IMG/VR virus record: IMGVR_UViG_3300032294_001820
Coordinates: 1 to 63,242 of that record
Origin: a virus
Direction: 5' to 3' (one strand)
DNA length: 63,242 nt
The notes beneath the pieces were generated by a model. That model made no database searches. It worked only from the letters and a program-made list of their open reading frames with translations, and was not told where the DNA came from. Shown here piece after piece: positions 30,895 through 61,905 of the stretch. A program made the position numbers and the translations under genes. Each line of letters begins with the position of its first letter. Positions within the stretch are counted from its first letter, which is position 1.

Positions 30895-30913
30895 ATGTGT
30901 GGAGTTTAAATTG

Positions 30914-33175
30914 TTACATTACTTGATTACTTTGTTGCCTCGGTTGTTGCCGACTTGCCATTTGAGCCTCTGACTTCATCATTGTTTCCAATAACTTAGC
31001 ATCCCTATTCTCAGCCATATTCGCATCAGCCCGTTCCATTTGCTCTAATTGTAGCATCTGATTCGCTATCTGCTGCTCCTGTGCCTGTGCCTCCATAGCC
31101 TGTCCTTGTGCTGCCATTGCCTCCTCTTGTTGACGCAGAATCTCCTGTTTCATTTTCAGATACCTGCGACTTGCACTATAAACCTCAGCCGGAGTACACA
31201 AATTAAGTACCTTGCTAAGAGTATTCTCGTCAAGCATACCCATTTGTAACAACTGCATCGCAACAACATTACCTTGGTTAATCAACTCCTTCTCGGGTTC
31301 GCTACGCTGTAAACTAATGCGGAAATCAGCCAATAGGTCATCAGCCGTAAAACTTATTCTCTCAGCACCTTCATCCCCAACAGCATTTATCAAAGTGTGT
31401 GGACTATCAGCATATATCTTCCTACCCCTGTTAGCAATACTCTGATACATTTGCTTCATGCAATCAGCCAAACTAAAGTAGAAATCCTCCTGAATAAGTG
31501 TTCCTCTGTTAATCATTGCCTGATTATTTCTAACCAATTCTAAACTACCGGTTCCAAGCATTTGCTCGTTTACACCCGTAATTGCCAATGCCGCACTTTT
31601 TACCTGACCAATCGCTGCACTTAAATACTCAAACCCATCAAGCCTTGTTCCAGGTATATTCGCAACAGCATTATTCAACCCAAATTTGCCATTTACCAAT
31701 ACAGGGTCGCCATTACGGATATTCCTTCTAAGCCCTTCTTCACCTTCCTCCTCGTCAATAATACCTCTGTCAATTAATGTAACAGGTGGAACTGCCCTAT
31801 TAACTTGATGCTCCTGTGCTGACCAAAAACGGTTAATCATTCGCTGTGGGTCAATCATAGAATCCAACGGACTAACCACCATTCCATTCCAATACTCAAA
31901 GGTCTGGACGCTATATGGGAATTTTGCACTGCTTGGATCTAAACTCGTTGTTTCCTGATAAGGCATAATTCCTGACTCCAAAACAATTGGAGCCATATCA
32001 TCGTCTTCGCCAAATGCACTGCTTGAAATATCGTACACAAATACACAATACCGAACTACATCAGCATTGAATTTCCGCTTCTTTTTGTTCTTACGATTCT
32101 TTCCTGAACCCTGTCCAAGAATCTTTTTATACTTTTCGTCTGTGGCAACAATGAGGTCTTTGTCTTCGTACTTCCCACCTTCGTAGTTAATACGCACAAA
32201 TAACTCATTCTCCATTTCATCGCTAACTACTCCGTATTCGTGTTCCTCAATATCACGCCAAAAAGCATAATAGGTACTTACCCTGCCTGTTTGGTCGCCT
32301 GTCCATAAACCATTGTCAAATTGGTCGCCATTGTTCTGATAACTTGCAATCTTCTCGATTTCCTCCCTTTGGAGTAAGGTCAAATCAGGGTACTTCTCAT
32401 ATATGTAGGTAGGGTCTAAAAACGCTTTATGGCCCATATACATAGAATCGCTTAGGTCATCTTTTTGGGCACTTACATCCCAAAAGAAATACCGGCTATC
32501 TAAACCCTCAAATACTTGGTGTCCGAAATGTTCCTTGTTAAATGCAACACATAGCCCCGAAGCACATAATTGCTTAGTAAGCCACTTCTTTAATTTTCCG
32601 TTTAAATCATTCCTGTCAGCAACAACCTTAATCAAGTTGTTTACATCACGAGTAAGGGTATCGAAATAATAACCATCAAATAGTCTTTCAGCATCTTCTG
32701 GTCCTTCTCCAATCGGGAATTGGTCTTGAAGAATATCCTTGAACATACCTCCCATTTCCTGAGCAATTTGGGAAATAATCATCATTTTGCTCATTTCTTC
32801 ATCTCGTTTCTGCTGAATACTCTCGCTTAGGGGTTCTGCCCTGTATTCGAAACTTGTCCTAATAGCATTACCTACATACTGACGAAGTACAGGTGCCATA
32901 ATATTATCTTGCCACCGAACCCTGCCATTAGGCTGTCCACTTTCGTCATTAAGGAATGTATCAATATCTTCATCCAACATCCACTGCCACTTCATTTGGT
33001 AGTTCGATAAAAGGAACATCCAATTGGTATCAGTTTTTGTTCTAAAAAAAGTTAGCCTCCAATCAAAGATTCTGCTAACAATATAGTTTGCCCAAGCTAA
33101 ATCATAATCCTCACCTTTCTTGCCGTCAATACCGGTAATCCTATTCGGTCTTATAGATGTAGTTGAGTATTCCAT
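30914..33175 (-). CDS. Portal protein
   Basis: A 753-aa protein located between terminase-region genes and scaffold/capsid, with the size of podoviral and crAss-like portals. The N-terminus has an aromatic-rich helix cluster (FLLSNYQMKWQWMLDE). A wing region around 190-330 and a clip-like acidic loop (about 375) follow. A Gln-rich helical barrel-like C-terminus (MAAQGQAMEAQAQEQQIANQ) ends the protein. The assignment rests on size, helical barrel and gene order. Confidence 0.75.
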   Translation of the reverse strand: MEYSTTSIRPNRITGIDGKKGEDYDLAWANYIVSRIFDWRLTFFRTKTDTNWMFLLSNYQMKWQWMLDEDIDTFLNDESGQPNGRVRWQDNIMAPVLRQYVGNAIRTSFEYRAEPLSESIQQKRDEEMSKMMIISQIAQEMGGMFKDILQDQFPIGEGPEDAERLFDGYYFDTLTRDVNNLIKVVADRNDLNGKLKKWLTKQLCASGLCVAFNKEHFGHQVFEGLDSRYFFWDVSAQKDDLSDSMYMGHKAFLDPTYIYEKYPDLTLLQREEIEKIASYQNNGDQFDNGLWTGDQTGRVSTYYAFWRDIEEHEYGVVSDEMENELFVRINYEGGKYEDKDLIVATDEKYKKILGQGSGKNRKNKKKRKFNADVVRYCVFVYDISSSAFGEDDDMAPIVLESGIMPYQETTSLDPSSAKFPYSVQTFEYWNGMVVSPLDSMIDPQRMINRFWSAQEHQVNRAVPPVTLIDRGIIDEEEGEEGLRRNIRNGDPVLVNGKFGLNNAVANIPGTRLDGFEYLSAAIGQVKSAALAITGVNEQMLGTGSLELVRNNQAMINRGTLIQEDFYFSLADCMKQMYQSIANRGRKIYADSPHTLINAVGDEGAERISFTADDLLADFRISLQRSEPEKELINQGNVVAMQLLQMGMLDENTLSKVLNLCTPAEVYSASRRYLKMKQEILRQQEEAMAAQGQAMEAQAQEQQIANQMLQLEQMERADANMAENRDAKLLETMMKSEAQMASRQQPRQQSNQVM

Positions 33176-43883: not shown

Positions 43884-44057
43884 ATGAGTACAGAAACAAT
43901 TAAAAGACAGACAAAGGATTCAATCCTTGCGGAAATCAATTCCAATGGCGGTTTTGACAATTTCAGAAATTGGAATATTGCCGACAAAACAAAGTGGGTA
44001 ATGGCAAACTACAATTGCACCAAAAAATTAGCATTCAAAATAGCCTGTGAGTTATGA
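43884..44057 (+). CDS. Small hypothetical protein, 57 aa
   Basis: It begins MSTETIKRQTKDSILAEI and has an HTH-like or small helical look (GGFDNFRNWNIADKTKW). Its stop overlaps the next start as ATGA. No family is recognised. Confidence 0.5.
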   Translation: MSTETIKRQTKDSILAEINSNGGFDNFRNWNIADKTKWVMANYNCTKKLAFKIACEL

Positions 44058-44170
44058 GAAAATTTCCCAAGCGTCCGAAAAACATTCATTCTTTGTCATT
44101 CACAGAATGGCTAATTGTAATTCTTTTAGTAATGGCAACAACACTTATCATTCACAATTTAACACTTTGA
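44054..44170 (+). CDS. Tiny membrane protein, 38 aa
   Basis: It is translated from the ATG inside the overlapping stop (gttATGAg). It is 38 residues, with a basic N-terminus (MRKFPKRPKNIHS) and one membrane helix (WLIVILLVMATTLIIH). This is a typical single-span small phage membrane protein. Confidence 0.55.
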   Translation: MRKFPKRPKNIHSLSFTEWLIVILLVMATTLIIHNLTL

Positions 44171-44175
44171 AACCT

Positions 44176-44574
44176 ATGAAATTCATTCAAAAATCCCTCG
44201 AATACAGGGAAAGACAAGCAGATTTGCACAATGAAACCAAAGAACTTTCCAGGCTTATTGCCATCAGGGAGAAGCTCGGTCTACCTGCTGGAGATTATAA
44301 CCTGAAACCACAGGCAAAAAAACATCCACTAAAAACCCTCGTTATCCTGCTCGCTATTGCAATATTCACGGGCTGTCAAACCCAAGTGCCAAGCAACTGT
44401 ATTAAAGCAAGCAGAATGTACCGTATTGCCAAAAAGACCCTGAAAACAGGAAAGCACTCAGGGGGATTCTTTCTCATGCACGATTCAACCCACGCATTCC
44501 ATGTATCACCGGGCAAATACCGAGTTATCCGGAACTACTATTTAATTGACAATCACTTTATTTATGTACCGTAA
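44176..44574 (+). CDS. Membrane protein, 132 aa
   Basis: The start at 44176 (MKFIQKSLEYRERQADL) follows the tiny membrane gene. An in-frame GTG at 44047 would overlap it and is rejected. The N-terminal 50 residues form a helical coil, then a membrane segment (LVILLAIAIFTGC) and an extracytoplasmic domain ending YLIDNHFIYVP. The internal FTGC is lipobox-like, but it is not at the N-terminus, so I read it as a membrane anchor. Confidence 0.55.
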   Translation: MKFIQKSLEYRERQADLHNETKELSRLIAIREKLGLPAGDYNLKPQAKKHPLKTLVILLAIAIFTGCQTQVPSNCIKASRMYRIAKKTLKTGKHSGGFFLMHDSTHAFHVSPGKYRVIRNYYLIDNHFIYVP

Positions 44575-44577
44575 GTA

Positions 44578-44853
44578 ATGAAAACAACCCTTAAAGACAA
44601 CTACGCAAATGAAGCGTATAAAAAATTCATTGACGACTGCTACCTGAAAATGTCAGTAGCAAAACGGAGATTAGGAATGACCAATAACGAAATTGCCGAA
44701 ATCACCGGGCTTACTCCAGTAACAGTTTCTAATATCATCACCGGAAAAGCAAGTTCAGTACAATCTGTTATTGCAGTCCTGCATTGTCTTGATATGGACC
44801 TTAAAGCTCGTAACAGAGAAGGGTTCCAGGAAAGGAGAAGGGAAGATATATGA
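44578..44853 (+). CDS. XRE-like HTH regulator
   Basis: A 91-aa protein with a helix-turn-helix near residues 30-58 (NNEIAEITGLTPVTVSNIITG), an XRE/Cro-type pattern, preceded by a helical N-terminus and followed by a basic tail (REGFQERRREDI). It is the only obvious regulator of the plus-strand operon. Confidence 0.7.
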   Translation: MKTTLKDNYANEAYKKFIDDCYLKMSVAKRRLGMTNNEIAEITGLTPVTVSNIITGKASSVQSVIAVLHCLDMDLKARNREGFQERRREDI

Positions 44854-45050
44854 AATCATTAATTATTTGGCAGTTAATCTATTGGGCACCGTTCATTTGT
44901 TACTTAATCTGTGCAGTATTTTTGAAACGGATCAGGGGATACAATTGCTATTCAGACATATTGATTAACACTTTCCTATCCTGCTTCATGGTAACATGGT
45001 TCGTAGCATGGCATAATCTCTATGAGTTAATTACTGACAAGCACAGGTAG
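44850..45050 (+). CDS. Small membrane protein, 66 aa
   Basis: Two membrane segments (LIIWQLIYWAPFICYLICAVF and ILINTFLSCFMVTWFVAW) with short charged ends. Its ATG overlaps the regulator's stop. It closes the operon just before a terminator. Paired regulator and small membrane genes can reflect exclusion or immunity functions, but nothing here proves it. Confidence 0.6.
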   Translation: MKSLIIWQLIYWAPFICYLICAVFLKRIRGYNCYSDILINTFLSCFMVTWFVAWHNLYELITDKHR

Positions 45051-45077
45051 GATTGATTGATTAGGTAGAAAAAAAAG

Positions 45078-45107
45078 AAACCGGGCTGTAATTAGTCCGG
45101 TTTTTTT
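45078..45107 (+). terminator. Terminator of the plus-strand small-gene operon
   Basis: A 10-bp stem (45078-45087 with 45094-45103, one G-U) with a 6-base loop and a T run to 45107, 28 bases after the last gene. Confidence 0.8.
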
Positions 45108-45185
45108 ATGCTTTTTATGGTAGGTTCAGGGCTGATATTAACCTGAGAAAACAGGGTGAAATTATACACGAATCACCGGGTAAAA

Positions 45186-45347
45186 TTACTCCGGTTGTCC
45201 GTCCGGCAACGAATGTTTTTTAACAAACTCGATTAAGACATCCAATGCCTCAGTAATTTGGCGTGGTGTGTATTTCATTTCATCAATCAGTCCTTGTCGA
45301 TACTGCTGATGATATTCAAGTATTTCGAGGGCTTTGTCTTTACTCAT
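45186..45347 (-). CDS. Small hypothetical protein, 53 aa
   Basis: The frame from 45347 (MSKDKALEILEYHQQYRQ) to a TAA at 45186-45188 is helical (RQITEALDVLIEFVKK). Its start overlaps the 147-aa gene's stop. No family is recognised. Confidence 0.5.
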   Translation of the reverse strand: MSKDKALEILEYHQQYRQGLIDEMKYTPRQITEALDVLIEFVKKHSLPDGQPE

Positions 45348-45783
45348 AAACCCACACTCCTTTCAATGTTGCGTCTGGGTGCGTGGCGGGAATTAATTGC
45401 CAAATCTCCAAAGCATGATTATAATATCGCACCATCTTCACCTCAATCGCAATTGGGATGCGTGGGGTGCGGAGGGATGCGATAAAGTCATCAAATGAAT
45501 CAAATGGCTCAAGTGTTCTACCGTAAGCGAATGCCTGAGCCATATCGTACAAGGTAAACTCGTACTTCTCACGGGCTTTGGAGTAACCTCTAACAAAGCC
45601 ACTTTTCAAATCTTTATTTAAGTCGTATGGATTACCTCCTCTGATGCTATCAATGTCAGTTCCGTATTGGGATTCAGCCATCCCCTCAATATCATCATCC
45701 TGATAATTTGGTATCTTAGGCAACTTGTACCCCTCCAATTCGGGGCAGGTTAGTTCGGGGGTTAGTTTAAATGTTTTTTTCAT
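45340..45783 (-). CDS. Hypothetical protein, 147 aa
   Basis: It starts MKKTFKLTPELTCPELEGY, is acidic and mixed, and contains no recognised domain. A cluster of aromatic and charged residues (YSKAREKYEFTLYDMAQA) sits near the centre. It is the second of three small genes between the MTase-1 cassette and the plus-strand operon. Confidence 0.55.
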   Translation of the reverse strand: MKKTFKLTPELTCPELEGYKLPKIPNYQDDDIEGMAESQYGTDIDSIRGGNPYDLNKDLKSGFVRGYSKAREKYEFTLYDMAQAFAYGRTLEPFDSFDDFIASLRTPRIPIAIEVKMVRYYNHALEIWQLIPATHPDATLKGVWVYE

Positions 45784-45940: not shown

Positions 45941-45981
45941 ATTTAAATTGCTGATTGTCAGATATGGTTTAGAATATTGTT

Positions 45982-46026
45982 GCGTAAAGCCTGTTGTTAG
46001 CTGCCATGCCGTGACAGCCTCCGTTA
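45982..46026 (-). mobile_element. attC-like site, R''/L'' half, after MTase-1
   Basis: On the minus strand GGCAGCTAAC (45996-46005) is followed by an ACAGGCTTTACGC stretch (L'' side). The MTase-1 stop TAA lies about 9 bases upstream. The extended arm GGCATGGCAGCTAAC is complementary (14 of 15) to the cassette's own 5' end GTTAGCTGCCGTGCC at about 46670-46684. The L'/R' half was not found downstream. Confidence 0.6.
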
Positions 46027-46752
46027 AAACATTCGTAGTTGTGATTTGAAGTCATTAAAACGCTTTTTAGATTTTTCGTAATAATCGGCATCAATCTCAA
46101 ATCCAACAAAGTTGAACCCACCTTTGTCCGCTGCTATTCGTGAGCTTCCACTTCCCAAGTGAGTATCCAAAATCAAATCCCCACGCTTTGCATAGTTCTG
46201 TAAAATCCAATCATACAATGCTACTGGCTTTTGTGTGGGATGTATCCGTTCTTCTTTGTCCTTCATATTCTGTTGTAACATTCCGTTCCATCTCCATTGA
46301 AACTTCCTTACTGCAGTATCAAATGAAGTCCAAGCCAATTCACAATCAGCGAAGTTTCCTGTATTGTCTTTATCCCACACAAGCCAGCAGCTACTATCGT
46401 GTGGCATTTTACTAATAAAGTGATTAGCCCCCCACACAATTTGATTTTTGGATACTCTAAACAGTTGGCGGAAATATTCTTCATTTGGTGGCTGTTTATC
46501 CCATTCTTTAGCTCCGTAATCCTTAGCTTTACCTGCGTTGTTTCCGCCAACCTTCCCAGTTTTAGCCACGTCAATCCCATAAGGTGGGTCAACTATCGCT
46601 AAATCAAAATGGTTATCGTTAAAGCGTTTTAATGCCTCCGTGCAGTCTTCTAAATAAACTTCGGTGAAAGGCACGGCAGCTAACACGGGTTTGGCAAAAG
46701 CGGGGCTTCCGTTTTCCAAATCAACTTTTGTATGTAAATCAAATTCTGTCAT
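46024..46752 (-). CDS. Amino-methyltransferase (beta class, N6-A or N4-C), cassette-borne
   Basis: A 242-aa enzyme. Motif IV DPPYG lies at 55-59, HPTQKP at 171-176, and the AdoMet motif LDTHLGSGSS at 195-204 followed by FVGFEID, an order typical of beta-class adenine-N6 or cytosine-N4 methyltransferases. The N-terminal 28 residues are translated from the attC-like loop and arm. It probably protects phage DNA against restriction or marks it. The TAA stop abuts the next attC-like core. Confidence 0.8.
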   Translation of the reverse strand: MTEFDLHTKVDLENGSPAFAKPVLAAVPFTEVYLEDCTEALKRFNDNHFDLAIVDPPYGIDVAKTGKVGGNNAGKAKDYGAKEWDKQPPNEEYFRQLFRVSKNQIVWGANHFISKMPHDSSCWLVWDKDNTGNFADCELAWTSFDTAVRKFQWRWNGMLQQNMKDKEERIHPTQKPVALYDWILQNYAKRGDLILDTHLGSGSSRIAADKGGFNFVGFEIDADYYEKSKKRFNDFKSQLRMF

Positions 46753-46812
46753 TCTATTAAACTTTTGTGGTTAAATTCCCCGCCTTCGCCAAGCCCGAAA
46801 ACGTTATGTGCC
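46675..46812 (-). mobile_element. attC-like recombination site before MTase-1
   Basis: Two imperfectly complementary arms, 46675-46708 (GGCAGCTAAC then a TTTGGC and GGGG block) and about 46774-46812 (CCCC, GCCAAG, CCCG, then CGTTATGTGCC), flank a loop of about 65 bases that contains the MTase-1 start. TAAC and GTTA cores sit near each end. The R' region GTTAGCTGCC and R'' region GGCACATAAC are on the minus strand. It lies just after the 69-aa gene's stop. Confidence 0.75.
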
Positions 46813-46813
46813 A

Positions 46814-47023
46814 TTAATAGACACCACTCCAAGTACAATTGTGATACGGCTTCTTAATGTCGTTGCCGTTTTTGCCTCTTAATTTAAGAGAGTTGGTTCT
46901 CTTAAATCCAAAGTTTTTAAAATAAGCGACCTCAATAAACGGCAACTTAAATCCGAATGAATAATGAAAATGGTGTATGTAATGAACACCAGTAAGCAAT
47001 TGAATTAATCTAAATTTTTTCAT
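46814..47023 (-). CDS. Cassette-borne hypothetical protein, 69 aa
   Basis: A small basic protein (MKKFRLIQLLTGVHYIHHF), with no recognised family. Its cassette is bounded by GTTATGTGCC at the 5' side and GGCACATAAC at the 3' side, 8 bases after the TAA stop. Extended, GTTATGTGCCGTTA and TAATGGCACATAAC are complementary in 13 of 14 positions. Its attC-like site follows it directly. Confidence 0.55.
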   Translation of the reverse strand: MKKFRLIQLLTGVHYIHHFHYSFGFKLPFIEVAYFKNFGFKRTNSLKLRGKNGNDIKKPYHNCTWSGVY

Positions 47024-47041
47024 CTGTTTTTAAATTTTAAC

Positions 47042-47140
47042 GGCACATAACAAGGGCTTTGCGTAATAGCCCTATCAAGTGTCGTGGTTAATTTTAAGTT
47101 TCTACTAAGGGCTACTACGCAAAGCCCCGATACGTTACCT
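47042..47140 (-). mobile_element. attC-like recombination site before the 69-aa cassette
   Basis: The arms 47042-47073 and 47107-47140 share a roughly 20-bp near-perfect stem (GGGCTTTGCGTA-TAGCCCT). GGCACATAAC lies at one end and CGTTAC at the other. Extra bases (TATC) on one arm give the usual attC asymmetry. The 129-aa gene's stop TAA (47135-47137) lies in the R'' core. Confidence 0.75.
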
Positions 47141-47524
47141 CTTTACCCCTATCCAAAACCCATCCCCACTAATCGGGTATCGGTCAACCCGTTTGAATTC
47201 GAGTTTGCCCGGTGTAATGCGATAAATCAGGGCTTCGTTATTCCAATCAGTAACATCCCAGACCTGAACGAAATAATGCGAGTGTTTGCCGTAAAGTTTG
47301 ATAATAACGGCACAATCCGAGGCGAGTGTATCTTTATCGGACATAAACCAATCGGGGTACAAGCAGGACAAAGGAATAGCATCGAAGCCTTCGTAAACCT
47401 CGTTACGATTCAAGTCTATTAGTACCGTATCTTTTGGAATTTCGTTTCGGGTAAGCGTCCATCCGGCATAGTATTTATCGGATTCAAGTGCCCATAGTGG
47501 GTGTGTTGATGGTGTGAATGTCAT
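47135..47524 (-). CDS. Hypothetical protein, 129 aa, with stop inside an attC-like core
   Basis: This 129-aa protein starts MTFTPSTHPLWALES, is beta-rich (YHSHYFVQVWDVTDW region) and ends DGFWIGVKR. The stop codon is the TAA of the R'' core GAGGTAACG. Its 5' cassette border was not found. Its start overlaps the previous stop as ATGA. Confidence 0.55.
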   Translation of the reverse strand: MTFTPSTHPLWALESDKYYAGWTLTRNEIPKDTVLIDLNRNEVYEGFDAIPLSCLYPDWFMSDKDTLASDCAVIIKLYGKHSHYFVQVWDVTDWNNEALIYRITPGKLEFKRVDRYPISGDGFWIGVKR

Positions 47525-47697
47525 GATACGCTAAATGTTTTACCTGTTGATGTTTCGCAATAATACCTGCCTATTAAACCGTTTCTATAATGGAAATCGT
47601 TTGCAACAGATATTGCATGATTGTCTGAAATTGCTTCAAGTTTAAATTCTTGAATATTTACCCCACCGGAAATCTTGAACATTATAAATGTTATCAT
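47521..47697 (-). CDS. Small hypothetical protein with a Shine-Dalgarno, 58 aa
   Basis: The ATG at 47697 is preceded by AAGGAGT (a strong Shine-Dalgarno, unusual in this window) inside GCGTATAAGGAGTATG. The product (MITFIMFKISGGVNIQEF) is mixed alpha/beta. Its stop overlaps the 129-aa start. A near-identical leader precedes the YopX-like gene. Confidence 0.6.
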   Translation of the reverse strand: MITFIMFKISGGVNIQEFKLEAISDNHAISVANDFHYRNGLIGRYYCETSTGKTFSVS

Positions 47698-47726
47698 ACT
47701 CCTTATACGCTATTCGTTCCAAAAAG

Positions 47727-47846
47727 TTACTTGCCCGTCTTAACTATCCTCAATATTGTCGATTCGGCTTTGCCGTACATTTTGGCTATGTCGTAGATTG
47801 ACATTCCACACTCGTAAAATGCAAGGATGTATTGGGTTTCGGTCAT
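47727..47846 (-). CDS. Tiny HTH protein, 39 aa
   Basis: The frame MTETQYILAFYECGMSIYDIAK … ILRIVKTGK shows a helix-turn-helix (MSIYDIAKMYGKAESTILRI). Its ATG overlaps the upstream stop as ATGA. It resembles the small recombinase or homing-endonuclease HTH arm found before HNH domains, here alone. No further domain follows. Confidence 0.5.
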   Translation of the reverse strand: MTETQYILAFYECGMSIYDIAKMYGKAESTILRIVKTGK

Positions 47847-48625
47847 TTCAATTTCGGGTTAACTCTCAATGATTTCTTCCAGTCCAAGCCGGATGGGAGG
47901 GTGTGGTTAGATTTAAAATCAACTTGATTCCAAGTGCCTTCTCTTCCCATGTTGTGAAGTACACCATACCAGCGACCTTTTCCGATTTCATCAAAACAAT
48001 GCACATTAGCCCAATCCGGAGCCTTCTCCCAATCCACCTGATACGGGTCGGGTTCAGAGTTGCGTAATGATTCAGCCGTTCTAATTATTTCGTCAAGTTC
48101 GGTTTGCGTTGCAATTACATTGTGTTCCTGATGCAATAGGTTAAACAATGGCTGATAATATTCAGCAACTTCCTGTATTGGTTTAGCCGTAACCGATTCG
48201 TGTACGCTGATGTGGTATTGGATAGGTCGGATGGGGCGGTAGCGGTTAGTGGATGGGATTGTAGGATTGTTCCAGATGTAACCAACTTGCATTTGCTCCG
48301 ATTCTGGCACACTCAAAATTATCTCCACCTTCACCCACTTCTCCGCATCTTCCTCGGTGCAGAACTCGTAGCCTTCTGGGAGTAAATGGGTGTAATCGGG
48401 TTCTGAACTATTCGGTTTTTCCGAATGGTTCAACTTCCCAAAATTATTCGGAATGTGCTGTTCGGCTAAGTGTGCCTCGATTCGCTCAATCCTTAATTGA
48501 AGTCTGTCAATTTGTTCCTGTTTTTTCCCCATTGGTTTAATTATATTAATGATTTCCTGCATATCTGAATCGGTTGCAATCAACCCCAATTCATGTAGAT
48601 AGTTAAATAGTTTTTGGTTTTTCAT
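47843..48625 (-). CDS. Hypothetical protein, 260 aa
   Basis: An N-terminal helical segment (MKNQKLFNYLHELGLI) with a coiled coil (KKQEQIDRLQLRIERIEAHL), a Pro/Ser linker and a C-terminal part with GKGRWYGVLHNMGREGTWNQV. Related proteins with short repeats of EYxxPLFNLLH occur in Bacteroidota phages. No function is assigned. It is coupled to the YopX-like gene by ATGA. Confidence 0.5.
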   Translation of the reverse strand: MKNQKLFNYLHELGLIATDSDMQEIINIIKPMGKKQEQIDRLQLRIERIEAHLAEQHIPNNFGKLNHSEKPNSSEPDYTHLLPEGYEFCTEEDAEKWVKVEIILSVPESEQMQVGYIWNNPTIPSTNRYRPIRPIQYHISVHESVTAKPIQEVAEYYQPLFNLLHQEHNVIATQTELDEIIRTAESLRNSEPDPYQVDWEKAPDWANVHCFDEIGKGRWYGVLHNMGREGTWNQVDFKSNHTLPSGLDWKKSLRVNPKLK

Positions 48626-48978
48626 GGTTTAAATAGATTGCTGGTGATTTTCAAAAGTGAAGGATACCTCCAATTATGCAAGTGCCAAAACTCGCCATTG
48701 CTATTCTCGACAACAAATGAACCATTTCTATATAAAACCTCTCCCAAAACCTCTCCTGTTATTCTTACTCGCATTCCTTCAAATATTTTATCTGCATTTT
48801 TATCGCACAACCCCGTAAACTGCCCAACGCTGTCGGGGTGAACGGGGATAATATCAGTTAGGCTATTTATTTCAATTGGAAGAATCCATTTTTTATTTAT
48901 CTCACATTGAATCAAATCACCCTCAACCCACTTGTTTAGGCTTTCTGAGAAGCCTCTAAATAGTATTATTCTTTTCAT
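48622..48978 (-). CDS. YopX-like protein
   Basis: A 118-aa protein with the YopX-family pattern: an N-terminal FRGFSESLNKWVEG, the signature PDSVGQFTGLCDKNADKIFEGM and a beta-rich C-terminus. YopX proteins are common in phages of Gram-positive and Bacteroidota hosts, and their role is unknown. The start has a strong Shine-Dalgarno (AAAAGGAGTATG). Confidence 0.75.
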   Translation of the reverse strand: MKRIILFRGFSESLNKWVEGDLIQCEINKKWILPIEINSLTDIIPVHPDSVGQFTGLCDKNADKIFEGMRVRITGEVLGEVLYRNGSFVVENSNGEFWHLHNWRYPSLLKITSNLFKP

Positions 48979-49011
48979 ACTCCTTTTACGCTTACTTACT
49001 CGGTTTTGTTA

Positions 49012-49019
49012 CAAATGTA
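49012..49019 (-). promoter_or_regulatory. TACATTTG promoter element
   Basis: An exact TAnnTTTG match on the minus strand, 34 bases before the YopX-like start. A matching -33 element was not seen. It would allow transcription of the downstream cassettes independently of the replication genes. Confidence 0.45.
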
Positions 49020-49045
49020 AGTTGTTGATGTTCATATGTGAATTA

Positions 49046-49075
49046 TGGTAGTATTGCGTATATTTATTGTTAGCG
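49046..49075 (-). mobile_element. attC-like half-site after MTase-2
   Basis: On the minus strand, the MTase-2 stop TAA lies in CCGCTAACAATA, followed by TACGCAAT. The extended arm ATGCTTTCCGCTAAC is complementary to the cassette's own 5' end GTTAGCGGAAGGCAT in 14 of 15 positions. A matching L'/R' half was not found. Confidence 0.6.
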
Positions 49076-49822
49076 GAAAGCATTAGCACCCTGCTTATCA
49101 TTGAACATTTTTACCCTTTGTTCGTCAATTTCGTATGCTATAAAATTCCTATTTAATTCTTGACAAACTTCGCCAACTATTCCACTCCCAAAAAACGGGT
49201 CTAAAACTATCCCATTATCAGGGCAAAAGCATTTAATAAGTATCTGTATTAAATCTTTCGGCTTTGCAGGTATTTTTCCCGTATGTGGCTTATTAAAATG
49301 ATAGTGGTCTCTTATCCAAGTTCCTTCATCTGATTTATCAAATTGCCTTCCTTCCGCTTTGTAGTCTCCAAATACCTTACTACTTCGCTTCATTGATTTT
49401 GTGCCTTCATTGTAATCTAATCCAGTTCTTACATCTACATAAAAGTCTTTGCTCAATGTAAGCCAAAAAATTTTTTGGAAGGATACAAGTGGCATTCGCT
49501 TACTTACCCAAGCACCACCATTTGAAAAACTCCAAATAATTTCACGCCTAAATATGTGGTTTACTTCGTTCCGCAATTCGTAATCAAATGGTTGCTTAGT
49601 GAAGCAAATAATATTTCCAGTTAGTTTTGTAACCCTTACTGCTTGACAAATTAAACCTTCTTCGCAAAGTTTATCCCAATCCTGATAATCGGGGTCTAAT
49701 ATTGTTAAGTCAATACTATGGTCATCTAAATCGCAAATTAAATCCATTGCGTTACCGAGAATTAACCCATGCCTTCCGCTAACATCGGTTTGGCAAAATG
49801 GGGGCTGACTGCTTTCTATCAT
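49070..49822 (-). CDS. Amino-methyltransferase (beta class, DPDY variant), cassette-borne
   Basis: A 250-aa enzyme. Motif IV reads DPDY at 43-46 (usual form DPPY), followed by a middle region that includes NGGAWVSKRMP. Then come KPKDL and the AdoMet motif LDPFFGSGIVG with FIAYEID near the C-terminus. Motif order is beta class. The first ~17 residues (MIESSQPPFCQTDVSGR) are encoded by the attC-like loop and arm, with no later in-frame ATG before the core fold. The TAA stop lies in the next attC-like core. Confidence 0.75.
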   Translation of the reverse strand: MIESSQPPFCQTDVSGRHGLILGNAMDLICDLDDHSIDLTILDPDYQDWDKLCEEGLICQAVRVTKLTGNIICFTKQPFDYELRNEVNHIFRREIIWSFSNGGAWVSKRMPLVSFQKIFWLTLSKDFYVDVRTGLDYNEGTKSMKRSSKVFGDYKAEGRQFDKSDEGTWIRDHYHFNKPHTGKIPAKPKDLIQILIKCFCPDNGIVLDPFFGSGIVGEVCQELNRNFIAYEIDEQRVKMFNDKQGANAFR

Positions 49823-49907
49823 CTTTTATCTGTTATTGAACATTAGTAATTCTAATCGGCTTTTGTTGGTATAATTCCCCCACTTCGCCAAGCCCGAAAA
49901 CGTTATT
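49779..49907 (-). mobile_element. attC-like recombination site before MTase-2
   Basis: Arms 49779-49807 (GCTAAC then TTTGGC and GGGGG) and about 49874-49907 (CCCCC, GCCAAG, CCCG, then CGTTATT) form an imperfect long hairpin around a loop of about 66 bases. The first core carries TAAC and the second carries GTTATT. The TM protein's stop TAA (49903-49905) lies in the second core. Confidence 0.75.
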
Positions 49908-50211
49908 CCTCCATCGCCTTCCTTGCAATATTTTCCCGGAACAAATCTTTCCTACTGCAATACAAATCCCACATAGCCATTTCTTGCGAAGTTATCTGGT
50001 CAATGACCAAATCTGTTTGATGAATTGAAACCAAATATAACGCCTTGTTAGTGATTGCTTCTTTCCGCCAATACATTTCATTGGTTTTGGAAATATCTCG
50101 CCGTGTTGAGGCTGTAATCCACGCTACGATTAATCCGGCACAGATAAAGGTCATCAGGTAGAATCCGAACTTGTAATAAAATCGGTAGGTATAGGAGGAG
50201 GGCATTTTCAT
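49903..50211 (-). CDS. Membrane protein, 102 aa
   Basis: A basic N-terminus, one membrane segment (FGFYLMTFICAGLIVAWITA) and a cytoplasmic helical part ending RENIARKAMEE. The stop TAA is in an attC-like core. It is the last gene of the small-protein operon before the cassette region. Confidence 0.6.
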   Translation of the reverse strand: MKMPSSYTYRFYYKFGFYLMTFICAGLIVAWITASTRRDISKTNEMYWRKEAITNKALYLVSIHQTDLVIDQITSQEMAMWDLYCSRKDLFRENIARKAMEE

Positions 50212-50468
50212 AATTCGTCCTGTGTGTTGTTTGGTGTTAAATTATACCTGTTTAAATAATCCACTCCGATATGAGGCACATTGTCCCTTATGTAGAATTG
50301 GCAGAATTTAATTTGCACGGCTTTGAGGTCGCTGTACGGCACTAATTCGATTCCAGATTTATTACTTGCAATCATCCGGTAAAGCATGATTTTTAGATTC
50401 TCGTTCTCGTATTGTAACGATTCGAGGCGTTTCTCTAATTCCTGAACTTGTTGGGATAGTTTGGTCAT
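50208..50468 (-). CDS. Coiled-coil hypothetical protein, 86 aa
   Basis: The N-terminal 35 residues (MTKLSQQVQELEKRLES) form a coiled coil, and the rest is short alpha/beta with no known motif. Its ATG overlaps the upstream stop as ATGA. Confidence 0.5.
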   Translation of the reverse strand: MTKLSQQVQELEKRLESLQYENENLKIMLYRMIASNKSGIELVPYSDLKAVQIKFCQFYIRDNVPHIGVDYLNRYNLTPNNTQDEL

Positions 50469-50968
50469 ACTATCACCCCCATGCTTTCCTTAATTCCTTC
50501 CGAAATCGTCTGGTTGACTACGGGGTAAGTGAGTTCGTGGATGTCGAATTGATTATTATTCGCTATAAACCTAATTAACATTTTTCTTCTCGGTCTTTCC
50601 CAATTAACTTTTTTTAGTTCATTGTAGAGATTATCCATAGCGTAATACATACCACGATTAAACAACATTTCCAACATAGCCCATGGTCTTACATCGTATA
50701 GTTCAAACCTATTTACATCGTCCCTATCTTTCAGTTCCCAATCTTTCCGCCAATCAAGTGAATCATGGTTAAAATTATGCTGAACGGTCTTGACATTATT
50801 ATCCCGGTCAAACTGAACCAAGCACGGCTTACCGCCCGATTCGATTTGGAAATTCTTTAGTTGGTCGTAATTATCGAACTGGCAATACAAGGTCTGGCCG
50901 TTCGGTAAAATAGCCTCGGCAAGTGCTGGGCAGTCTTGGGGCGTTTCGTGAAGTTTGGTCATAATCAT
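50465..50968 (-). CDS. Hypothetical protein, 167 aa
   Basis: It begins MIMTKLHETPQDCPALAEA, right after the previous stop, and has a mixed alpha/beta body with YDVRPWAMLEMLFNRGMY. No family is recognised. An ATG at residue 3 is an alternative start. Confidence 0.5.
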   Translation of the reverse strand: MIMTKLHETPQDCPALAEAILPNGQTLYCQFDNYDQLKNFQIESGGKPCLVQFDRDNNVKTVQHNFNHDSLDWRKDWELKDRDDVNRFELYDVRPWAMLEMLFNRGMYYAMDNLYNELKKVNWERPRRKMLIRFIANNNQFDIHELTYPVVNQTISEGIKESMGVIV

Positions 50969-51397
50969 TTATACGGTTTTAGGTTCATTTTGTTTCACCA
51001 AGGTAGCCAACATTTTCAGAGCGTCTTTATCCCCGATTGAAATTAATCCGCTGAAATCGTCTCTGTGATGCATTACCGTAGTGTGGTCAATATACCCGAG
51101 CATATTGGCTGTGTCTTTCAGGCTCAAGTTATTCAACTCAGTTAGGTAGTAACACAATGCTTTTCGAATGTTTATAATTTTCCTCAGCCTACATTTTGAC
51201 CGGATGGATTCTGGAGTGAATCCGTAATATTTAAGCCATTCAGAAAGGTCTTCAATCTTTTGAATTTTCCGCTTCGATATGTCGGGAGCAAGTGCTTGCA
51301 ATCGTCTGCGTTGTTCCTCGTATATCATATCGCTCAATGCTTGGCTGACTGCTTGCTGTCCGCATAACTTTACGGCTCGGTGGTATGCGTTGCTCAT
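50969..51397 (-). CDS. DnaA domain IV-like DNA-binding protein
   Basis: This 142-aa protein has at its C-terminal half (about 85-130) KCRLRKIINIRKALCYYLTELNNLSLKD, then LGYIDHTTVMHHRDDF. This resembles the DnaA domain IV box: basic helix, then a DHTTV DNA-contact loop. It may bind DnaA-box-like sites at the origin. The N-terminal half is a helical region with no AAA+ motor. Confidence 0.65.
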   Translation of the reverse strand: MSNAYHRAVKLCGQQAVSQALSDMIYEEQRRRLQALAPDISKRKIQKIEDLSEWLKYYGFTPESIRSKCRLRKIINIRKALCYYLTELNNLSLKDTANMLGYIDHTTVMHHRDDFSGLISIGDKDALKMLATLVKQNEPKTV

Positions 51398-51666
51398 ATC
51401 TCAAACACCTTAACAGCCTCAACCAAACTCAAATCTACCTTATCCAAGCCATGACAAATAGTGCTGGGATGTTGGTTGTAAATCGCACCTATCTCTTCAC
51501 AGGTCAATCCTTTTCGCCTGAGATTCCACGCAATCGCTCGTCTGATTGCAACTATCTCTCGGTATTGGATACCGCTCAGGATTAATTCTTTCGTTACTGG
51601 CATCCATGTGTCGGTAAGCCTATTTTGCTTATCTCGCAGTCGGTATTTTAATTGGTTCTCGTTCAT
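51394..51666 (-). CDS. DnaA domain IV-like small protein
   Basis: A 90-aa protein with YREIVAIRRAIAWNLRRKGLTCEEIGAIYNQHPSTICHGL near the middle, again a DnaA-domain-IV pattern (two helices, then an H-P-S-T-I contact loop). It is next to the 142-aa protein with a similar domain, so the pair may act together. It is coupled by ATGA overlap on both sides. Confidence 0.6.
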   Translation of the reverse strand: MNENQLKYRLRDKQNRLTDTWMPVTKELILSGIQYREIVAIRRAIAWNLRRKGLTCEEIGAIYNQHPSTICHGLDKVDLSLVEAVKVFEI

Positions 51667-51857
51667 TTTATAGTTATCGTTATTTCCAAAATCTTAACTA
51701 TTTCCATCAGCCTCGGAACGCTCAAAGTCGTTATTTGTCGTTCCATTCTGGTGTACTGCTGTTTGGTCATGTGAAGTTTGTCTGCCATTTCATTTTGACT
51801 TAAACCGATTAATTTCCGAGTGGTTCGGATTTTGTGAATTAGTTCGGGGTAGGTCAT
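51663..51857 (-). CDS. XRE-family HTH regulator, 64 aa
   Basis: The full protein is one helix-turn-helix (LIGLSQNEMADKLHMTKQQYTRMERQ), an XRE-type repressor pattern. It probably controls the early replication genes and could be an immunity or lysis-timing factor, but no operator was seen. Confidence 0.75.
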   Translation of the reverse strand: MTYPELIHKIRTTRKLIGLSQNEMADKLHMTKQQYTRMERQITTLSVPRLMEIVKILEITITIK

Positions 51858-52054
51858 ATTCCATCCTCCATTTTAGATTTCCGTTCCTCGTCACCTCGGC
51901 TGTTGGCATCCCACCACGCCATGGTTTCAATGTCCATTGTTTCTTCTGGAATGTCGTGGTGCGGGCATCTGCCTTTTTCTTCACAGCACCCAACTACATT
52001 ACAGCAGTTACCATCGCATTCACCGTTTAAGCATTTTACTTCATTAGTTTCCAT
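51854..52054 (-). CDS. Cys-rich small protein, 66 aa
   Basis: This 66-aa protein contains CLNGECDGNCCNVVGCCEEKGRCPHH, a dense Cys cluster that may bind zinc or form disulphides, followed by an acidic tail. No family is recognised. It overlaps its upstream gene by 11 bases. Confidence 0.5.
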   Translation of the reverse strand: METNEVKCLNGECDGNCCNVVGCCEEKGRCPHHDIPEETMDIETMAWWDANSRGDEERKSKMEDGI

Positions 52055-52325
52055 CCTTAATCTCCTTTCCTATTGTGATAACAATGTACTCCGAGTGAAT
52101 CTTACGCTTAACCTGGGTCTTCTTGCACTCAATGATCCAATCATACTTATGCCTCAATTCATAAACCCTTGCACCAAGTCGGTAAATTCCAAGTTCCTTC
52201 AAAGCTTGCATAGGATTAATCTTCTTATGCACCCGAAGGTAACTCGCAAGTCTTTGAACGCCTATATTATCCTCATTAGAGTAGGTGTTTACATCTGCTT
52301 GCATTTGCGTGTATCCTGTTTCCAT
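52044..52325 (-). CDS. HTH-like protein (HTH_39-like), 93 aa
   Basis: The central part (NPMQALKELGIYRLGARVYELRHKYDWII) resembles a helix-turn-helix domain (HTH_39-like) seen in many phage small proteins. It heads the small-gene operon that runs to 49903. A 98-base gap with a small hairpin (CCGACCAATGCTCGG) precedes the RecT gene downstream. Confidence 0.55.
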   Translation of the reverse strand: METGYTQMQADVNTYSNEDNIGVQRLASYLRVHKKINPMQALKELGIYRLGARVYELRHKYDWIIECKKTQVKRKIHSEYIVITIGKEIKDGN

Positions 52326-52423
52326 GTGATTTAATTGGTTTTAATTGATTAAACTTATTTTCTCCTCCTCCGACCAATGCTCGGATGAACCTAATCACCC
52401 GAAGCACGGTCCTATTTGGAGTA

Positions 52424-53236
52424 TTAATTGTCTGGAGTAATATCTAACGGAAGTTCTCCATTGTTTGTTTCAGGTTGTTCTTGTTGCTGAACAAACAACT
52501 CATTCAAATTAGGCTTCTCAACAATGAACTGCTGATTATCCAAGTCAATTACATTGCTAATCTGCTCAGACTTCGGCAAATACTTGTAGTGCCTCTTAAT
52601 TACGGTTTTCTTCCGCATTTCATCAGCCCAATTACTTTCCTGCCAAGGACTATATTGAGAGTTTGCACCATCACTTTTACTTTTAATCTTCTCTAACTCC
52701 CATCCAGGCATAAACTCATAATCAAGGCTTCCATCTGCTAATGTAGCACAGGAATATGCCCCAATTACTTTCCTTGCCATGTGTTCCTTCTCGGTTTCAG
52801 CATATCTTTGCTCATGTACTACGACCATTCTCGTACTTGCATTGTACTCAAATTGTTCATCGTCATAAACAACTACTGCTGATACCTTCTTTACGCTTCC
52901 TGAATCAGTAAGAATCTTTGTCAAACCCATATAAGAAGGGTCAAGTACGGCTTTCCCTTTGCGTGGGATAAGATATGCCAACTTCATTGCAGGATTCAAT
53001 GTAAGCCCTGTAAATGCGATATTCTCAACAGCACTACGAATGCTCACTAAATCAACATTCTGCCACCCTTTAGGATTGTTCTGAATAATTTGCAAGGCAA
53101 AGTTAGCCTCCTTGACAAATGTTTCCTGTGGCATTACGGATAGGAACCTCGCTTTTGCTGCTGCGATAGCCTCTGAAGGGGTAGTGATTTTTGCAGGTTT
53201 ATTTTCCTGCTTCTGAATTGCGTTTGTTTCTGACAT
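52424..53236 (-). CDS. recT: RecT-family single-strand annealing protein
   Basis: This 270-aa protein has the RecT pattern: QIIQNNPKGWQNVDLVSIRSAVENIAFTGLTLNPAMKLAYLIPRKGKAVLDPSYMGL, then EFMPGWELEKIK and YKYLPK. It anneals single strands during recombination and replication, working with the adjacent exonuclease. A disordered acidic tail ends the protein. It is 16 bases after the exonuclease gene. Confidence 0.9.
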   Translation of the reverse strand: MSETNAIQKQENKPAKITTPSEAIAAAKARFLSVMPQETFVKEANFALQIIQNNPKGWQNVDLVSIRSAVENIAFTGLTLNPAMKLAYLIPRKGKAVLDPSYMGLTKILTDSGSVKKVSAVVVYDDEQFEYNASTRMVVVHEQRYAETEKEHMARKVIGAYSCATLADGSLDYEFMPGWELEKIKSKSDGANSQYSPWQESNWADEMRKKTVIKRHYKYLPKSEQISNVIDLDNQQFIVEKPNLNELFVQQQEQPETNNGELPLDITPDN

Positions 53237-55367: not shown

Positions 55368-55922
55368 TTAAACCCTCCCGGACAACATACTTAAAGCCCT
55401 GCTGAAATCTGCTGTCTTAAGACCGGCATAAAATACCGCTACCGCATCTGCTTTGTGTTCCTCCGTTGTTACCTGGGGCTTACCGGTTTTATCAAGTTTC
55501 CATTCAAGTTCAGGGTGCCGGTCAAATGCCCATGCAATCATATCAGCCTTACTTGCGGTCTTACTGCCTACTGTGGCTTTCTTTACCTCAATAGGAGTTA
55601 CCTCGATAGGGTTAGGTGTTAGGGTTGCTAACAAGAAGCAAGATACCCCATAAGACTTCATTCCGGAAGCACTTTGGCTACCACTTGGGGTTTCAGCAAA
55701 TATCAAATCCGGTTGGTGGATTTTAATATAATACTGCGTTGGTTCATATAATTCCCTACATCTTCCGATTAGGTCTGAACTTGCTCGAACTTGTTTAGAC
55801 TTGGTTTTCTCGGTATTCAGAGTTGTACTCCAAATCACTTTTGCGTCCATTGTCGCTACATCGAGTTCAAATAAAACCAATGCTGTGTGGCTCATACTTG
55901 GGTCAATACTTAGTATTTTCAT
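55368..55922 (-). CDS. RuvC-like Holliday junction resolvase
   Basis: A 184-aa RNase H-fold protein. It has SIDPSMSHTAL (D7), FAETPSGSQS (E77), VKKATVGSKTASK and EEHKADAVAVFYA (H156, D159), the acidic pattern of RuvC-type resolvases. It probably resolves branched phage DNA before packaging. It overlaps the methyltransferase gene by 20 bases. Confidence 0.75.
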   Translation of the reverse strand: MKILSIDPSMSHTALVLFELDVATMDAKVIWSTTLNTEKTKSKQVRASSDLIGRCRELYEPTQYYIKIHQPDLIFAETPSGSQSASGMKSYGVSCFLLATLTPNPIEVTPIEVKKATVGSKTASKADMIAWAFDRHPELEWKLDKTGKPQVTTEEHKADAVAVFYAGLKTADFSRALSMLSGRV

Positions 55923-57165
55923 AATGATTCTGTATTGCTTTCATAACTTGTAAAACTACTTGGGGCACTATGGCATTTCCGGCACATTTGATGGCTTCTT
56001 TCCGGAGCCAGTTGGCTTCTTTTCGGAGGTACGCTTCAATGTTTTCAGGCGTTTCTCCAGCCTCTCCAAGAGTGGTTCGGATATGTCGCACCAGTTCTTC
56101 GGAAAGCCCATCATATCCAGAGTGAAAAGGTGACTGAGATGGCCAGTTTCCCCAGTAGTTACCTGAATGTAGTTTGGCAACTGGTCTATGTGGATTACCC
56201 GATTCGGGTCTTTCGATAGGTGTTCCGGGCTGTTCGCTCCCTTGATGTCCCGGGTTGCCGGGGTGGGAATTAGTCCTGCCACCAGCATATCCCCAAGTCT
56301 TGCCTGTCCCTCCACTCCATTGTTGCTCTGAACCCTCGGAGAATTTGCTTTCATTACTACCGGACGAGCCACATCTATTGATTCCGATTTCGTTGGGGTG
56401 GGCAGTAACCCCTGCATCCTCTCCATCAGGATTCCATTCATGGCTTCCTGTGCCAAGTTCCCCGAACTCCCCGAAACTCCCTTGCTGTTCATATTCTCCA
56501 TCAGGGCATCCTGAGCTCCCGGAGTTTTGAGAAGTCCCTGTACCTGCGTTGCAAGATTCGGCATTTTCGTGCCATTCGGATATTTCTCCATTCGCTTTTG
56601 GAATTGATCCAAATCCTGAACCTCTTCGCACCTCGTTGGAGTAAGCAACAATCCAGACTCTATCCCGGCGGTGCGGTGCACCTGTGGCACAAGCTGGAAG
56701 TACAAACGCCTGGACTTCGTAGCCTTCGCTTTCCAAGTCAAGGCACACCTGTTCGAATACCACTCCCCCTTCAATACTAAGTAATCCAGGCACATTCTCC
56801 CCAATAATGTAGTCCGGACGGATTTCTTTGATAAGTCTAAACATTTCTGGCCAGAGATGTCGAGAATCTTCTGAGCCCTCTCTTGCACCTGCAACTGAGA
56901 ACGGTTGACATGGTTAATGGAACCCACCGGTTGCGATAATTCCGCAAGTTGCCCAGTGGGTTCCAAATCGTTTAGAAAGTTCAGTGTTAATTGTGTCATA
57001 ATTTAGTGTATGAATATCTCCGTGATGATAAGCGTTTGGAAATCTTTTCTTTAATACTGCTTGAGGAAATGGTTCAATCTCACAGGTAACACCTGTTTCC
57101 CATCCCATTTCTTTTGCTGCAATAGAAAAACCTCCAATACCCTCAAATATACCTATATGAATCAT
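55903..57165 (-). pseudogene. C5 cytosine methyltransferase interrupted by an in-frame ochre codon
   Basis: The frame opens at 57165 with motif I (GIFEGIGGFSIAAKEMGW) and reads to GIIATGGFH, then TAA at 56914-56916, then continues in the same frame with PCQPFSVAG (56896-56913 holds PCQPFS), ENVPGL, RRDRVWIVA and a C-terminal GNAIVPQVVLQVMKA. Without the stop the protein would be 420 codons long. Homologues normally read GGFPCQPFS with no residues between F and P, so six bases (CATTAA) look inserted. It may be a broken gene, a split gene, a readthrough case or a strain variant. The start overlaps the HNH stop. Confidence 0.8.
55968..56999 (-). CDS. Long overlapping frame within the C5 methyltransferase region
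   Basis: A 343-codon uninterrupted frame (MTQLTLNFLNDLEPTG onward), shifted by one base from the methyltransferase. It repeats LLxTPT-type motifs (GLLLTPTRCEE, GLLKTPGAQD, GLLPTPTKSES, GLIPTPATRD) and ends with LDMMGFPKNWCD and GKKPSNVPEMP. These resemble, from memory, proteins often annotated near phage and Bacteroides C5 methyltransferases. It may be a real overprinted gene or a by-product of a conserved nucleotide layout. I cannot decide without alignment. Confidence 0.4.
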   Translation of the reverse strand: MTQLTLNFLNDLEPTGQLAELSQPVGSINHVNRSQLQVQERAQKILDISGQKCLDLSKKSVRTTLLGRMCLDYLVLKGEWYSNRCALTWKAKATKSRRLYFQLVPQVHRTAGIESGLLLTPTRCEEVQDLDQFQKRMEKYPNGTKMPNLATQVQGLLKTPGAQDALMENMNSKGVSGSSGNLAQEAMNGILMERMQGLLPTPTKSESIDVARPVVMKANSPRVQSNNGVEGQARLGDMLVAGLIPTPATRDIKGANSPEHLSKDPNRVIHIDQLPNYIQVTTGETGHLSHLFTLDMMGFPKNWCDISEPLLERLEKRLKTLKRTSEKKPTGSGKKPSNVPEMP

Positions 57166-61402: not shown

Positions 61403-61792
61403 CTATTTTTTTTCCAAATCAAAATGATACTCGTCCTCGTCCTGAATCATCCAAGCTCCTGTACAGGCATCAACTATTAACGAAGGAATACCGAAAAAGT
61501 TTACCATCGGAATGAAACACATACCAATATTGGCAACAGCATACCCAGCCCTTACCTGCCGATTAGTCCTGATTTGAGCCGTTTCGTAGCCATCAGCCTT
61601 GACTATAATAGTGTTTTTCTTCTTCTTTTGTACCTCAACAGTGCAGGTTCCTTCGCCTACCTTGTTTCCGTTAATGAAGACTTTTGCGTTCTCAGGCTTA
61701 GTGTAGATTGTAATATCTTGCCTTGAACCTGTGGTGATTGTAGCACATCCTGTAAAGAATGCCAATGCTAAAATTAATGTAACTTTTCTCAT
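61403..61792 (-). CDS. Lipoprotein with PEGA-like domain
   Basis: A 129-aa protein with a signal and lipobox (MRKVTLILALAFFTGC, Cys16). A PEGA-like stretch follows (YTKPENAKVFINGNKVGEGTCTVEVQ), then a hydrophobic segment (AVANIGMCFIPMVNFFG) and an acidic end. It resembles Bacteroidota and phage surface lipoproteins and may modify the infected cell envelope. It is monocistronic between two terminators. Confidence 0.65.
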   Translation of the reverse strand: MRKVTLILALAFFTGCATITTGSRQDITIYTKPENAKVFINGNKVGEGTCTVEVQKKKKNTIIVKADGYETAQIRTNRQVRAGYAVANIGMCFIPMVNFFGIPSLIVDACTGAWMIQDEDEYHFDLEKK

Positions 61793-61859
61793 AATGTTTT
61801 TGTGTTTATGAAGGTTCTAACGACAACTATTTATTTAGGTTACATTTTTAATCAAAAAT

Positions 61860-61905
61860 AAAAAACCCTCGAAACAAACGCTGCAAGTCATTTATTCCAA
61901 GGGTG
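61860..61905 (-). terminator. Terminator of the candidate small RNA
   Basis: A stem pairs ACCCTCGAAA with TTCCAAGGGT (imperfect), followed on the minus strand by a T tract. The stem strand ACCCTCGAAACAA resembles the terminator at 61283-61328. Confidence 0.6.

Follow-up and report, generated by a model that had tools for sequence, protein, structure and literature searches.

What are DNA methyltransferase genes flanked by attC-like hairpins doing in a phage genome that carries no integrase, and what could move them? The question is raised by a 63,242-nucleotide stretch of viral DNA, IMG/VR record IMGVR_UViG_3300032294_001820 (the window, meaning the whole stretch that was analysed), in which an earlier note had described one array of five attC-like sites between minus-strand genes. 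Such sites belong to integrons, systems that spread antibiotic-resistance genes. The locus very probably consists of three integron-type cassettes inserted at two attI-like points in a Bacteroidota-type phage genome, with a recombinase of the IntI/XerA type acting from outside. IMG/VR contigs are taken as viral, as labelled.

The arm, core and gene-end sequences listed in the earlier note are found at 45.5-50.5 kb as described there. The covariance-model search that it had proposed was carried out with a model of our own, for which 28 stems were taken from other contigs and none from the window. Its stem has 23 base pairs, and at 11 of them one or more sequences differ at both paired positions. 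In the window the model returns three strong minus-strand sites and no others, at 46679-46808 (E 5.6e-29), 49778-49907 (E 2.1e-27) and 47046-47139 (E 6.2e-13); weaker matches are the opposite strands of two of these and 61790-61899 (E 0.36). A search for GTT/AAC-anchored ends that are complementary at 13 of 14 positions and lie 150-1200 bp apart gives four pairs, namely the three cassette pairs and a chance pair at 30913-31783, while twelve dinucleotide shuffles give 0-2 pairs each, with a mean of 0.33. The complementary cassette ends that had been described (14 of 15, 14 of 15 and 13 of 14) are real. Of the five proposed sites, the three hairpins stand and the two half sites do not: 49046-49075 and 45982-46026 each consist of one recombined R core and, on the side of the insertion target, a motif resembling an L box that is also present at many unrelated insertion points. 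A reading of the half sites as decayed attC sites was rejected because the partner arm is absent and they match target motifs. Nor is there one array, since the window holds a single-cassette insertion and a two-cassette insertion ~2 kb apart. A search of the window for tyrosine recombinases was negative, in agreement with the earlier note. Measured against the definition of a cluster of attC sites lacking integrase (CALIN; at least two adjacent attC sites and no integrase), the window thus offers two adjacent sites and one separate site, integrase-free, with the sites scored by our own covariance model.

The extent of each cassette can be read from relatives of its gene. Relatives of the methyltransferase MTase-2 lie in unrelated phage surroundings, and when window positions 46000-53000 were compared with five such contigs (L001-L005), only the unit of cassette 1 aligned (from 49894, 49904 or 49908 to 49069), at 92-95% DNA identity over 826-840 bp. 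The surroundings do not align, and outside the unit there are weak matches between related stems only. The common stretch begins with the hairpin that precedes the gene and finishes with CCGCTAAC at the gene end. Likewise, the MTase-1 unit (46805-46000) is 82.6% identical to contig L024, whose surroundings do not align. These shared units show that a hairpin moves together with the gene that follows it. The proposal of gene cassettes delimited by attC-like hairpins is supported, but the pairing is reversed: the hairpin belongs to the downstream minus-strand gene, and the polarity first assumed, in which it accompanies the upstream gene, is ruled out by the shared units, by the side on which recombinases lie and by strand folding.

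Cassette 1 (49070-49902, minus strand, 833 bp) comprises the hairpin at 49778-49907 and MTase-2 (49070-49822, minus strand; N6_N4_Mtase, PF01555, E 6e-23), with the exchange point presumably at TAA|C on either side. MTase-2 ends in a TAA stop codon that is the R'' core, and its start codon most likely lies within the hairpin, because the stretch from the R core to the conserved GNAMDL motif contains no in-frame ATG, GTG or TTG. Cassette 2 (46804-47134, minus strand, 331 bp) has the complementary ends GTTATGTGCCGTTA and TAATGGCACATAAC and comprises the hairpin at 47046-47139 (fold z -4.15) and a 69-aa gene from the open reading frame list (46814-47023, minus strand) that has no match in Pfam or PHROG. 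Cassette 3 (45997-46803, minus strand, 807 bp), bounded by the L024 alignment, comprises the hairpin at 46679-46808 and MTase-1 (46024-46752, minus strand; N6_N4_Mtase, PF01555, E 8e-19), again with the start codon within the hairpin. Both insertions directly follow the TAA stop codon of a resident minus-strand phage gene: a 102-aa gene for cassette 1 (49903-50211), where the TAA is also the outer R core, and a similarly arranged 129-aa gene upstream of cassettes 2 and 3 (47135-47524). On the far side each insertion meets an attI-like target flank on the minus strand, C|AATAAATATACGCAATACTACC at 49046-49069 for cassette 1 and C|AACAGGCTTTACGCAACAATA, a motif of the same kind, at 45975-45996 for the two-cassette array. 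The former resembles TAAC-N8-TATACGCAA, the target motif common to other phage insertion points.

Do such cassettes come and go? In related phages they do so at the predicted core, as the earlier note had suggested checking. The MTase-2 cassette is not present in relatives L058-L062 and L064, where the homologue of the 102-aa resident gene has no cassette behind it, and the two-cassette point is empty in L058, L060, L063 and L064 and holds a different cassette in L059, L061 and L062. The attI-like stretch AACAATAAATATAC(G/A)CAA is found at the cassette 1 point of the window (point 2, 49046-49069) and at point 1 of L059 (~6875-6900), and is missing where there is no cassette. As a separate observation, in L033 (4915-5040), L044 (1256-1370) and L045 (2724-2849) a gene of the MTase-1 type follows, from GTTA onwards, a hairpin that is 96-98% identical to that of MTase-2; unrelated methyltransferases thus have the hairpin-encoded N-terminus MIESSQPPFCQTDV in common, which indicates that hairpins are also swapped between genes.

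The cultured Baltic Flavobacterium phages of the genera Muminvirus and Lillamyvirus (Nilsson et al. 2020, PMC7077304) bear long cassette arrays; the covariance model (termed R1) places ~15 sites in the filifjonk9-1 array and 14 in that of lillamy9-1, within ~9 kb. Variable methyltransferase genes were described for these phages too, and are here located in cassettes; the main text of that study makes no mention of integron, cassette or attC. Phages hemulen9-1 and stinky9-1 differ by one methyltransferase cassette between flanks that are 99.8% and 99.985% identical, a gain or loss that left no scar. In lillamy9-7, a 438-bp cassette identical to an interior one of lillamy9-6 is placed beside the attI flank TAAC|TACAATATTACATG, and its former interior place is closed scarlessly, so that one natural relocation to the attI position, a single event, is on record. 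Pairwise breakpoints among 14 Flavobacterium phages fall mostly at TAAC|G. No tyrosine recombinase was found in the six Flavobacterium phages searched.

How closely do these sites and cassettes correspond to those of integrons? As in integrons, a cassette is one gene with one folded att site, its boundaries lie at R cores, its own ends are complementary, exchange is at a GTT core and, in one case, a cassette arrived at attI. The strand reading TAACG...GTTA, which is the minus strand of the window, folds better in 126 of 143 stems and worse in 4; folding of the minus-strand arms, another check proposed at the outset, gives -15.7 kcal/mol (z -1.97) for the cassette 1 hairpin versus -11.0 kcal/mol (z -0.3) for the other strand. 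By the deduced polarity the minus strand of the window is the bottom strand, and this folding preference, also an integron trait, would be in keeping with recombination of a single-stranded bottom strand. The core differs from that of integrons: among 88 distinct cores GTT is invariant by search design, the fourth base is A or G, the fifth T, G or C and the sixth and seventh any base, and the window cores (GTTAGCG, GTTAGCT and GTTATGT) do not conform to GTTRRRY/RYYYAAC. A second difference lies in the stem, where folding predicts no conserved bulge position within the L stem, and hence no conserved extrahelical bases; instead, the predicted consensus has a one-sided 3-6 nt bulge separating the R and L stems.

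The third difference concerns the recombinase. Dependence on an ordinary host integron had been proposed, and the survey speaks against it: none of 38 genomes with such cassettes has an IntI above the TIGR02249 cut-off, whereas IntI controls (Enterovibrio, Undibacterium) match profile positions 1-315 with 434-451 bits. The recombinases found beside the arrays match the profile ends only (~1-180 and 237-315), the middle insertion being missing, and score best with NF040815 (XerA/integron integrase). By alignment, every adjacent and phage recombinase lacks the IntI-specific insertion (alpha-I2 region). As in integrons, they lie at the attI end, in 18 of 19 loci, or 20 of 21 when the chromosomal arrays of genomes G013 and G151 are included, where the recombinase stands behind at least 12 and ~24 sites, respectively, all on one strand; in 13 of the former loci it is transcribed away from the array. 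The five phage recombinases form one clade (support 100/99) in a tree that includes only two Xer references beside IntI1 and VchIntIA, and that does not settle the branching order of IntI, Xer and the array enzymes. The insertion helix of VchIntIA contacts the extrahelical base G20'' (PMC3053210), so a joint loss of the insertion and the extrahelical bases would be consistent. Integron-like simple tyrosine recombinases have been reported by Smyshlyaev et al. 2021 (PMC8138268), who describe the insertion as essential if an integron is to function; no text linking insertion-less recombinases to cassette arrays was found in the open literature. As far as sequences can tell, then, the system behaves like an integron yet lacks defining features of IntI integrons.

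Two phage loci hold a full set of parts. Contig L102 (1252-5016) carries two cassettes, an attI-like target and an adjacent insertion-less recombinase, and L092 (948-9459, with L309 904-1800) has about nine sites in a contig of 169 kb. The recombinase gene of L102 lies at 4183-5016, that of G151 at 7591-8658 of L345, and another at 4601-5497 of L243. Separately, the integron-integrase profile matches 49 stretches in Epilithonimonas hispanica (genome G001, L182), far above other genomes; these are apparently amplified insertion-less recombinases.

The direction of the cargo genes distinguishes phage from chromosomal cassettes. In arrays found with the covariance model, all 42 callable phage cassettes read away from the hairpin and none towards it, versus 27 of 32 Bacteroidota chromosomal cassettes that read towards it, the canonical direction, and 5 that read away. 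The pattern-found set is restricted to cassettes whose gene encodes 60 aa or more, with phage counts taken among the matches listed and a viral scan that favours one hairpin type; here the hairpin lies behind the direction of reading in 83 phage cassettes from 30 protein families (the largest with 38 proteins) and ahead of it in none, with 4 ambiguous cases, and the chromosomal cassettes number 41 towards (40 families) and 5 away. In integron polarity, therefore, phage cassette genes are inverted. Among the same matches, the longest ATG frame begins inside the hairpin in 49 of the 83 phage genes; many such genes have another in-frame start a few codons later and may be translated from there instead. 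Phage cargo is mostly DNA modification (N6_N4, C5, MT-A70 and Mom). Viral contig L094 carries a Mom-family gene (PF25680, E 9e-66) as a cassette.

We hypothesize that an IntI/XerA-type tyrosine recombinase without the IntI-specific insertion, provided by the host or a co-infecting phage, acts on the cassettes. Exchange would take place on the folded minus (bottom) strand at TAA|C, equal to G|TT on the top strand, and excised cassettes would then be inserted beside the L-box motif, just after a resident gene's stop codon. Because the non-disruptive targets would be stop codons (TAA followed by C) in one-way phage operons, a cassette would be fixed antisense to transcription and only inverted genes would be expressed. 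Cassettes thriving in phages would thus be those whose gene runs opposite to the chromosomal direction and hence lies within the one-directional transcription unit of the phage, which would place the hairpin upstream of the gene, where it may often provide the start codon. A cargo consisting mostly of DNA modification would aid evasion of changing host restriction.

Several observations weigh against this model. No recombinase is assigned to the window phage or its host, and the association of recombinase and cassettes is drawn from proximity and topology in sequence data. The empty points of the relatives are not base-exact, as tens of bases around the attI-like motif differ too, and inverted genes also occur in 5 of 32 chromosomal array cassettes and 5 of 46 pattern-found chromosomal ones. 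Moreover, in an assay by Qi et al. 2023 (PMC9892861) one site of Polaribacter phage P12002L was recombined by the ordinary IntI1, and a role for ordinary integrases is therefore also possible. That result, together with the phage CALINs published in the same study, would suit a rival explanation in which ordinary cassettes were captured from a host integron whose IntI is of the standard kind, in standard orientation with attC downstream of the gene, as would the attC-like sites, the G|TT-type core and the bottom-strand preference. This is unlikely, since the hairpin moves with the downstream gene and thereby contradicts the orientation, an IntI above the cut-off is absent from all 38 cassette-bearing genomes while controls reach 434-451 bits, the core is not GTTRRRY and no conserved extrahelical bases are predicted.

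Could genes instead be exchanged by homologous recombination between similar stems, with no site-specific recombinase at all? Stems do resemble each other across cassettes, and the stem-gene combinations in L033, L044 and L045 look like swaps at GTTA. However, the attI flanks at insertions have only TAAC and a weak L box in common, breakpoints fall mostly at TAAC|G rather than being scattered along stems, an identical cassette was relocated scarlessly to the attI end between lillamy9-6 and lillamy9-7, and the recombinase is consistently at that end, all of which make this explanation very unlikely. A single-strand transposon of the IS200/IS605 kind, or another hairpin-bounded element, would account for hairpin-bounded DNA at a short motif with no target duplication; it is extremely improbable given that each unit has a single hairpin, that unit ends are complementary yet differ from one unit to the next, that the arrays hold different genes and that a tyrosine recombinase stands in register with them, although no search aimed at HUH transposases was made.

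How widespread would such a system be? R1 sites occur in 34 of 61 Bacteroidota genomes drawn evenly across the phylum, and an exact-pattern prevalence of 9 in 296 was set aside as far too narrow beside this covariance-model figure. More than 100 viral contigs, as a lower bound, carry such sites according to a pattern scan of IMG/VR, and the suggestion that phage-borne attC sites are rare is not upheld for this type. IntegronFinder reports almost no integrons in Bacteroidota (PMC9024848), and no paper on Bacteroidota cassettes of this type was found in the open literature, subscription papers and preprints being outside the scope. We consider it probable that Bacteroidota own a widespread, overlooked integron class with insertion-less IntI-like recombinases and att hairpins without the extrahelical bases that are read by the missing part of IntI, of which phages keep a dedicated branch that has phage attI sites, inverted genes translated from inside the hairpin, mostly DNA-modification cargo and sometimes a phage-specific recombinase clade.

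The CALINs that Qi et al. 2023 (PMC9892861) described in phages are similar in being phage arrays without an integrase, with methyltransferase cargo and with the Bacteroidota phage P12002L among them. For P12002L that study noted 'divergent directions' and suggested phage mosaicism; here, in contrast, gene inversion is systematic over ~30 families, the start codon is often in the hairpin, and phage attI-like sites and another recombinase family are present. The R1 covariance model does not match Polaribacter phage P12002L, whose stems are shorter as judged by eye only. Integrons are regarded as working by virtue of the IntI insertion together with the extrahelical bases, and as both are missing together here, a working system would change the view of what is essential. 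If the model is correct, Bacteroidota would have a common cassette system, and phages would be seen using it to exchange methyltransferases in response to host restriction. This is directly testable in cultured phages that are nearly identical but for a single cassette and belong to a group with published plating data.

Elsewhere in the window, nearly all other genes lie on the minus strand, the exception being a few plus-strand open reading frames at 44047-45485 (175, 91, 66 and 75 aa). A further DNA methyltransferase (phrog_363) is encoded outside the cassettes at 55903-56999, in two overlapping frames.

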